From assembly GCF_001723685.1 (NCBI RefSeq), contig NZ_MCBX01000038.1, positions 62,001-126,000 of the forward strand: a stretch of 64,000 nucleotides of DNA. The letters run 5' to 3'. This DNA comes from Candidatus Marithrix sp. Canyon 246. GTDB taxonomy: Bacteria; Pseudomonadota; Gammaproteobacteria; Beggiatoales; Beggiatoaceae. Made by a program: the position numbers and the translations under genes. The notes beneath the pieces were generated by a model, which worked only from the letters and a program-made list of their open reading frames with translations, had not been told where the DNA came from and ran no database searches. Position 1 is the stretch's first letter; each line of letters begins with the position of its first letter. Below, piece after piece: positions 20,182 to 22,029 of this stretch.

Positions 20182-22029
20182 ATGCACATTATAGCTCAAC
20201 GTATATTAATACCCGAAAACACCCAAGCCATTCTTTGGGATATGGATGGAGTCTTAATAGATTCTTTAGGTTTAGATTTAACTGTTTGTAATCAGCTTTT
20301 GGCTGAATATTTTGGTGATCATGTCAAATTAAGTCATGAGTTTATTCGTTCTATATTTGCTTATCATCCTCCTGAGTTTTGGAATTTGATTTTGCAGCAT
20401 GTGGCTGAGCAATATAATATTGCTGATGCTTTAAATTTACATGGCACTATTTTGCCTATTTATGATAAGGCGCGACGTGAAAGTGTTTTTGAGGTTAATC
20501 TTGGTATTATTGAAATTCTTAAAGATGCTAAATCCAAATCCTTAAAGATGGCAGTAGTCTCCAATAATTTAACTGCTGATGTAAATACAATATTGCAACA
20601 TGCTGGGATTCTTGAATATTTTGATTTGGTGATTGGCAATGATATTGAACAATTAAAAGCTAAACCTGCTCCTGATACTTATTTATTTGCAGCTAAAAAA
20701 TTAGGCTGCCAGCACTGTGTAGTAGTTGAAGATTCCATTATTGGTACAGAAGCTGGATTTAATGCTGGTTTTCATGTAATTGCAGTCGCCACTGGTGGTA
20801 CTGATTATCAAGCTTTAGCTAATAATCAATCTACAGATCAAATTTATTCGACATTCAAGAAATTGTCTTTGGAGATGCAATTTGGAGATGTGACTAAAAA
20901 GCATTTTATTACTCCAAATGATTTTGTTAGTCACATGGTTGAGCATATTGCTTGGCGGCTTTGTGTTGAGATTGATTTAAATTGGAATAATAATGATTGG
21001 CTGCAATTAGGTAAATTTGTAGGCACAAAAATTCGCCAATTTGAAATACATCAAGCATCAGCCTCGGCATTAGGTATGATTGATGATGGCAGCGCGGAAG
21101 TATCTATAGATACAGCGGCTGAACCCGAATTAGTATTAAATTCAATTGATAATTTAGATTTAGACTGGTTTTTATCAACGCGCTGTGAACAGTTAGAAAC
21201 TGGAAAACCATTAGTAGAATTAATGCAAGGTTTAGCTGAAGGTTTGCAAGCCAAAATGCAAGTCACAATTTGTAGCGTCGAAGATTTACATCATGCTTGG
21301 GAAGGTGTTTTTAGAGCAATTGGTATTAGTTTAAGTAGAATTTTCACTCCTAAACATCTTCCAAGTTTGGATTTTGACAAATCCTTATATTATAGTAAAG
21401 TGTTTAGAGGTACAGCAGAAAGCCATGTAGCCGTATCAGTAGACTTTTCTAAAAAATTAGCAAATAAATTTGTATTTAATGTAGCGTCTAATATTGATGT
21501 TAGTGAATTACATTATTTATTAGAAATCTTAGCTAAAGAAGCTGGATTTACCATGCAAGTAGAATTTAATGCTACGGTACTTAATTCTAGCCATGTAGTA
21601 TTAGAAGACACAGCTTTAGTATTAGGCAAAGCATTATTGAATATTTTAGTTCTACGTATGAAACATTGGGGAGTCAATGGTGCTGGTAGTAGCTTTGATT
21701 CTAAAGCAATTCGTACTGGTATTAGCGTCGAAGGGCGAAAATTCTGGATATTTGTACCATTTAAAGATTCTCAAGATAGCGTTAGAAAAAATCTATTAAT
21801 TGGACAAAATGTATATAGTAAATTGCGCTCTGAAGATTTAGACGACTTTTTGGATGGGCTATCAGGCGGATTAGCTTGTAGTATTATAGTTCATATAGAT
21901 ACATTGATTGATGCTAATGATGCTTGGCAATTAATTTTTGCTAATTTGGGCAAATCTTTGAAAGAGGCATTTGCTTTAAATCCTTACCGTAAAGGTGTGC
22001 CGCCGGGAGTTAAGGCGACATTGGCTTAA
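20182..22029 (+). CDS. HAD phosphatase fused to two IGPD (HisB)-like domains
   Basis: A 615-residue protein. Residues 12-210 are a HAD-IA hydrolase of the beta-phosphoglucomutase/phosphoglycolate type: D20-M-D22-G, VVSNNLTAD, K161-P and E183-D184. Two regions then resemble imidazoleglycerol-phosphate dehydratase. Copy A (about 235-390) keeps HMVEHIAWR and H370-H371-AW-E374 but lacks the first HHxxED motif. Copy B (about 403-600) has RGTAESHVAV and H471-VVL-E475-D476 but NDAW (579-582) where the second His motif should be. The tail RKGVPPGVKATLA recalls the HisB C-terminus. This is not the classical HisB architecture. It follows the GT2/DUF2304 pair by 3 nt. Substrate unknown. Confidence 0.7.
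   Translation: MHIIAQRILIPENTQAILWDMDGVLIDSLGLDLTVCNQLLAEYFGDHVKLSHEFIRSIFAYHPPEFWNLILQHVAEQYNIADALNLHGTILPIYDKARRESVFEVNLGIIEILKDAKSKSLKMAVVSNNLTADVNTILQHAGILEYFDLVIGNDIEQLKAKPAPDTYLFAAKKLGCQHCVVVEDSIIGTEAGFNAGFHVIAVATGGTDYQALANNQSTDQIYSTFKKLSLEMQFGDVTKKHFITPNDFVSHMVEHIAWRLCVEIDLNWNNNDWLQLGKFVGTKIRQFEIHQASASALGMIDDGSAEVSIDTAAEPELVLNSIDNLDLDWFLSTRCEQLETGKPLVELMQGLAEGLQAKMQVTICSVEDLHHAWEGVFRAIGISLSRIFTPKHLPSLDFDKSLYYSKVFRGTAESHVAVSVDFSKKLANKFVFNVASNIDVSELHYLLEILAKEAGFTMQVEFNATVLNSSHVVLEDTALVLGKALLNILVLRMKHWGVNGAGSSFDSKAIRTGISVEGRKFWIFVPFKDSQDSVRKNLLIGQNVYSKLRSEDLDDFLDGLSGGLACSIIVHIDTLIDANDAWQLIFANLGKSLKEAFALNPYRKGVPPGVKATLA

Follow-up and report, generated by a model that had tools for sequence, protein, structure and literature searches.

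In the imidazoleglycerol-phosphate dehydratase (IGPD) of Acanthamoeba, according to PMC6029752, every active site is formed at the junction of three subunits. The ligands of Mn1 are H67 of chain A' and H40, H162 and E166 of chain A, and those of Mn2 are H66, E70 and H138 of chain A' together with H163 of chain A; chain A also gives H48, K170 and D101 to the site, and chain C gives R92, R114, S191 and K193. For plant IGPD2, the available text of PMC4509728 names His47 as a ligand of Mn1, Glu21 as the proposed acid-base catalyst, Arg121 as a contact of the substrate phosphate and Lys201 as a residue of the C-loop, and Asp108 is described as holding the Mn2 water (PMC4509728 and PMC6029752, in the portions available). 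Two HHxxE motifs per IGPD domain are reported for 535 of 535 sequences in the accessible portion of PMC7284861. The enterobacterial bifunctional HisB (hisNB; NF003937) carries a HAD phosphatase before its IGPD domain, and HAD-type histidinol phosphatases similar to phosphoserine phosphatases are described, in the available part of PMC5764234, as having been recruited for histidinol phosphate.

The window analyzed here is the whole stretch of 64,000 nucleotides from Candidatus Marithrix sp. Canyon 246, in which positions 20182-22029 of the + strand form one ORF of 615 aa. A Pfam scan of the whole protein detects HAD_2 at residues 17-202 (95.5 bits) and two stretches of IGPD (PF00475), with 54.6 bits in all (E 1.6e-14; cut-off 27). 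The HAD domain, a phosphatase domain similar to beta-phosphoglucomutase, occupies residues 1-228 (20182..20865, + strand); it is followed by a first IGPD copy, called A, at residues 229-392 (20866..21357, + strand), and by a linker and a second copy, called B, at residues 393-615 (21358..22026, + strand), with the domain proper covering approximately 402-613. Each copy by itself exceeds the PF00475 cut-off of 27, A with 30.3 and B with 32.9 bits. An AlphaFold2 model of the whole protein, built on an alignment of 30 rows, has a pLDDT of 91.2 and a pTM of 0.89, and copy B as modelled superposes on IGPD with Z 22.8 (rmsd 2.4, 185 residues aligned). In a Foldseek search with the whole protein the best 50 matches listed are HAD proteins, and copy A was therefore modelled separately (pLDDT 97.5); it superposes on IGPD with Z 20.4 (rmsd 2.1, 154 residues aligned), and the top 21 entries of its structure search are all IGPD, the next entry having Z 8.4. 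The profile matches of each half and the predicted IGPD folds of both confirm what the first-pass annotation had read from the ORF, namely a HAD domain followed by two IGPD-like regions, with a correction to copy B, which extends over about 402-613 instead of 403-600.

The mean identity of copies A and B to each other is about 16.5%, too low for the age of the duplication to be dated, and either copy is on average about 20% identical to 29 canonical HisB sequences. The linker between A and B is 16 residues shorter in the window, at 21376-21381, than in the congener (L004/L053), and in the other eight rows of alignment A1 its length is similar to that of L004.

The residues of the Acanthamoeba site were carried over to the numbering of plant IGPD2, using the accessible text of PMC4509728, and from there to the gene by alignment, the conversion being our own. 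The alignment comprises 30 rows of the fusion family and 29 rows of canonical HisB, mostly from relatives; the canonical rows come from 33 loci, four of which (L026, L042, L044 and L048) were dropped because the motif search gave no frame, and they contain one genome twice (L047 and L117). Alignments A2-A4 omit L077, which lies in two frames, and L074, which is cut by a contig end.

The chain-A residues H47, H55, D108, H169, H170, E173 and K177 correspond to H251, R259, D301, H370, H371, E374 and R378 of copy A. These seven positions are invariant in copy A in 30 of 30 rows, and all seven columns are variable in copy B. On the + strand of the window, H251, equivalent to the Mn1 ligand His47 (PMC4509728, partial text), lies at 20932..20934, D301, equivalent to the Asp108 that holds the Mn2 water (PMC4509728 and PMC6029752, partial texts), at 21082..21084, and the second metal motif, H370-H371-x-x-E374, at 21289..21303. 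The chain-A' residues H73, H74, E77 and H145 correspond to H471, V472, E475 and D555 of copy B, again invariant in 30 of 30 rows. The first metal motif of this copy, with H471, V472 (where His74 is lost), E475 and D476, is at 21592..21609, and D555, at the position of the ligand His145 (Glu in 27 and His in 2 of the 29 canonical rows), is at 21844..21846, both on the + strand. In copy A, H73 and H74 are deleted and the columns of E77 and H145 are variable, the latter with E in 19 of the 30 rows. The chain-C residues R99, R121, S199 and K201, absent or not conserved in copy A, correspond in copy B to G500, R519, G609 and K611, the R99 position being G in 27 and A in 3 of the 30 rows; R519 (Arg121, the contact of the substrate phosphate) is at 21736..21738 and K611 (Lys201 of the C-loop) at 22012..22014, both on the + strand and both assigned with the partial text of PMC4509728. 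E21, the proposed acid-base catalyst in the same text, is E413 of copy B (21418..21420, + strand) and has no counterpart in copy A.

Counted over 15 site residues, 12 are kept in the expected copy as identical or conservative residues and none of the 15 in the other copy (Fisher p 1.1e-5), the replacements of H55 by R, of K177 by R and of H/E145 by D being taken as conservative; if only identity is accepted, the counts are 9/15 and 0/15 (Fisher p 7e-4). E21 stands outside the 15, the chain that provides it being uncertain from the available text of PMC4509728 and PMC6029752. All seven chain-A residues are retained in copy A only, and five of the eight chain-A' and chain-C residues in copy B only. 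A composite site made of A and B has 7 of 8 metal-ligand positions filled, with D555 replacing His/Glu, and V472 is found in place of the eighth, H74. In all 30 rows the composite site has lost this metal ligand and the phosphate arginine R99, and S199 is represented by G609.

The motif residues named in the first-pass annotation, H370-H371-E374 in A and H471, E475 and D476 in B, are present and invariant in 30 of 30 rows, and the complementary loss that it had recognized between the two copies proves wider than claimed, since it also involves D108, R121 and the C-loop lysine. Two details have to be amended. Copy A has indeed lost the first motif, and the loss extends to the entire first-motif stretch and to the N-terminal strand; copy B keeps H471, E475 and D476 of its HHxxED motif, while the second histidine is V472 in every row. 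Neither domain thus carries two HHxxE motifs, A having only the second and B only HVxxE at the first in 30/30 rows, and the gene is for this reason classed as an IGPD-derived variant and not as a canonical IGPD. It is like monofunctional IGPD/HisB (PF00475; PDB 4mu0, 6khh, 6fwh) in fold, in most metal ligands and catalytic residues and, as the gene context suggests, in a role in the histidine pathway. It is unlike it in having two copies per chain with the residues divided between them, in the loss of H74 and R99, and in that it would form one site per chain, not one per IGPD domain.

Copies A and B could also exist without a shared site, either in separate homomeric assemblies or with one copy active and the other serving as a spacer, and the fact that the AB tandem remains where the HAD domain is absent fits a scaffold role equally well. 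However, A is without H73, H74, E77 and E21, and B is without H47, H169, H170, E173 and a conserved D108, so that either copy alone has an incomplete ligand set; the residues that each has kept are, moreover, those that one chain contributes to the shared site in the accessible description of PMC6029752. We regard such an arrangement as very improbable.

It is highly probable, in our judgement, that the gene encodes a divergent HisB in which a histidinol-phosphatase is joined to an asymmetric dehydratase with one site per chain, formed by A plus B. The HAD domain would remove the phosphate from histidinol phosphate (step 8) and the two IGPD domains would dehydrate imidazoleglycerol phosphate (step 6), both activities being putative. 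Each IGPD domain by itself is without about half of the catalytic residues. In the normal enzyme a two-fold related pair A/A' gives two equal sites, and in the fusion the pair would consist of A and B in putative contact, with A in the position of chain A and B in those of chains A' and C. The live site would retain 7 of 8 metal-ligand positions together with E21, D108, R121 and K201; the reciprocal site, with almost no metal-ligand position filled, would be dead, so that one chain would provide one site instead of two. The pairing of A with B at half the usual number of sites, as first proposed from the ORF, is well supported by the residue-by-residue partition, as far as sequence can tell. 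The AB part is homologous to IGPD and probably works like it.

Since copy B, and not copy A, keeps the chain-C residues, chain C of each site should be a B copy, which is a structural prediction. There would be one site per chain and, if the shell of the normal enzyme is kept, 12 sites per 24-domain shell. A complete picture, with a putative oligomer of 12 chains, a 24-domain shell of 12 A and 12 B copies, 12 live and 12 dead sites, a metal centre altered by the change of H74 to V472 and a new phosphate pocket resulting from the loss of R99, is offered as a tentative model that is somewhat more likely to be wrong in part than right throughout. V472 would leave one metal with three protein ligands. 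If this model is true, the fusion could serve as a natural experiment on the reasons why IGPD assembles as 24-mers and requires two Mn ions; with one metal ligand missing, it would also be a naturally occurring variant in which the role of either Mn ion could be tested. It has the appearance of a clear example in which duplicated domains have split one active site between them; in the open-licence literature, covered mostly as titles and the beginnings of abstracts, we found no description of tandem IGPD domains with divided residues.

In the N-terminal domain D20, D22, S127, K161, E183 and D184, which we take to have catalytic roles, are invariant in 29 of the 29 rows that have a HAD domain. 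The domain is like the beta-phosphoglucomutase-type HAD phosphatases (TIGR02009; PDB 4eek, 3e58) in fold and conserved residues; it differs from the members of TIGR02009 in scoring 83.2 bits, under the cut-off of 153.35, and in having stand-alone relatives in his clusters. The hisNB family NF003937 gives 38.9 bits against a cut-off of 443, with the best stretch at 404-598, which is the IGPD part. The HAD domain is therefore beta-phosphoglucomutase-like and not of the HisB-N type, which bears out the earlier view that this part does not belong to the subfamily of classical HisB. Compared with hisNB, the fusion has the same order of a HAD phosphatase before IGPD and the same two steps are proposed for it, whereas its HAD domain is of another type and its IGPD domains are two instead of one.

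Three his gene clusters, from Kaiserbacteria and Peregrinibacteria (L085, L087 and L088), have a stand-alone homologue of the HAD domain, 36 to 47% identical, in the interval from hisD to hisH. Two Parabeggiatoa genomes have an unfused HAD protein of this kind and also carry a canonical hisB; at one of these loci (L082) hisD and hisC are neighbours of the HAD gene. Because these homologues sit in his clusters or beside hisD and hisC, the HAD domain is likely a histidinol-phosphate phosphatase, and the fusion to HisC in L057 is a further element of context for this role. It would share with the phosphatases of PMC5764234, compared by description only, the recruitment for histidinol phosphate, and it differs from them in being fused to IGPD. 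In the three clusters an ORF of 367-432 aa lies between the HAD gene and hisH, in the hisB slot (L085:10651-11937, L087:6080-7378, L088:10621-11724); in L085 and L088 this ORF shows similarity to APH phosphotransferases, with 13.0 and 21.6 bits under a cut-off of 23.2. A search of these three genomes for IGPD gave no match.

The fusion gene is under purifying selection. Compared with the congener, dN/dS is 0.15 overall and 0.13 in copies A and B, and 74 columns are invariant across the 30 rows; a pseudogene is rejected on these grounds. A duplicated hisB in the course of losing its function could be imagined from the site residues lost in both copies and from one genome, G035, which has a canonical hisB and also a remnant of the fusion N-terminus with a stop, but selection of this strength on both copies makes such decay scarcely credible for the gene as a whole. 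The remnant (L015, G035:C138:8598-8735) is 46 aa long and contains a TAG stop, and a congener of G035 has the intact fusion. Within genus g2 the fusion is present in G002 and absent from G026 and G035, and within genus g18 it is present in G032 and absent from G018, so the fusion or canonical state must have changed within each of the two genera.

At E 0.001 the genome of the window contains no IGPD match other than the two halves of the fusion gene. Among 57 genomes (this one and its relatives), 11 carry the fusion, one of them cut by a contig end, and no canonical IGPD was found in these 11. Canonical IGPD is present in 39 of the 46 relatives without the fusion; 7 have neither form, so IGPD may simply be missing from a bin. 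The exclusion between fusion and canonical hisB has a Fisher p of 1.7e-7, a value that overstates the significance since the genomes are related. A scan of public genomes, based on HAD peptide patterns only and thus under-counting AB proteins without this HAD, returned nine carrier loci already counted and 21 new ones (L077 split over two frames). The nearest further carrier is a Candidatus Marithrix, and others belong to Thiomargarita, Thioploca, Thiodictyon, Magnetococcales, Desulfobacterales and two Actinomycetota. No canonical IGPD was found in the 21 new genomes, whose completeness is not given, which makes 0 of 32 fusion-bearing genomes in three phyla, the window's own included. The first-pass annotation had hinted that the gene lies outside histidine biosynthesis; this view is contradicted by the replacement of canonical hisB genome by genome (0/32 against 39/46) and by the relatives of the gene that lie in his clusters or are fused to HisC. 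The AB family would also explain apparent hisB gaps in relatives of Marithrix and Thiomargarita, in Magnetococcales and in Desulfobacterales.

G084 is the only genome found with both forms, and shows that AB can coexist with a normal IGPD: at L080:1479-4454 a HisC fused to a canonical IGPD is directly followed by an AB tandem without HAD. This case, the loss of H74 and R99 and the his-cluster genomes of L085, L087 and L088, in which the dehydration step may have other solutions, are what speaks for AB being an IGPD-derived enzyme or regulator for another substrate, with imidazoleglycerol phosphate dehydrated by an unrelated enzyme. We consider this improbable in view of the mutual exclusion of fusion and canonical hisB in 32 genomes of three phyla, of the position of the gene in his clusters, including the hisB slot in L054, and of the invariance of E21, D108, the seven metal-ligand positions and the C-loop lysine.

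A broader survey at E 1e-30 sampled 398 genomes of the window's phylum and detected AB in 10, these being the window's own genome and nine of one genus (eight of the nine already belong to the 32, G135 being outside that count), and in 1 of 396 genomes of the phylum of G083, which is G083 itself. A tree of 29 proteins, from which L080 is left out because it has no HAD domain, unites Magnetococcales, Thiodictyon and the two Actinomycetota in a fully supported group and places the two Actinomycetota beside one Thiotrichales bin. This placement suggests gene transfer, without proving it.

Of 30 fusion loci, taken with a flank of at most 10 kb, 23 have hisD or a hisC-like gene on the strand of the fusion. 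In the remaining 7, among them the window and the congener L053, no his genes were found within that distance. It was thus correct that the neighbours of the gene in the window are not histidine genes, while the role outside histidine biosynthesis drawn from them does not hold; a sugar enzyme, as these neighbours might indicate, is rejected by the hisB exclusion and by the relatives in his clusters. In L054 the fusion gene occupies the hisB slot, with a hisD fragment (covering 95 of 411 profile positions) on one side and hisC-hisH-hisA-hisF-hisIE on the other; there hisC is supported by a TIGR01141 score above the cut-off, hisA and hisF by PF00977 and hisD by PF00815, and hisH and hisIE were named from reading of the proteins. 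A transposase-like ORF is located just upstream of the hisD fragment (L054:1-1020), and hisD seems broken. HisC is fused in front of the protein in two Thiomargarita genomes (L007/L057 and L013/L074), in a frame of 992 aa in L057 and in one cut by the contig end in L074. If the proposed functions are right, steps 6, 7 and 8 would lie on one polypeptide in some species.

Other his genes accompany the AB tandem. Over the 33 AB-bearing genomes, hisD is present in 32 (G058 having a fragment, and G008 being the exception), PF00977 (HisA/HisF) in 33, with weak matches in G012, and a hisC-family gene in 33 at E 1e-20, 19 of them over the cut-off, this family also matching in all 14 controls. The absence of canonical hisB while other his genes are present holds for the window's own genome, which has hisD, two PF00977 matches beyond E 1e-80, hisC over the cut-off and a HisG-like ORF.

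HisG itself (PF01634) was not found in 11 of the 33 AB-bearing genomes. In 6 of these 11, including the window's genome, a HisG-like ORF is present, and the other five (G058, G066, G085, G008 and G032) have neither, through incompleteness or a further replacement. That the histidine pathway is absent because HisG is absent is a reading weakened by five relatives that have a canonical hisB and also no PF01634, and weakened further by the HisG-like ORF, which is present in 11 of 16 HisG-less genomes and in 0 of 4 HisG-bearing genomes tested. This ORF of about 395 aa (L171, G000:C30:186629-187777, minus strand; also L160, L161, L162 and L163) was recognized by eye from its HisG-like motifs, no Pfam family exceeding its cut-off in the two that were scanned, and it may be a divergent ATP phosphoribosyltransferase.
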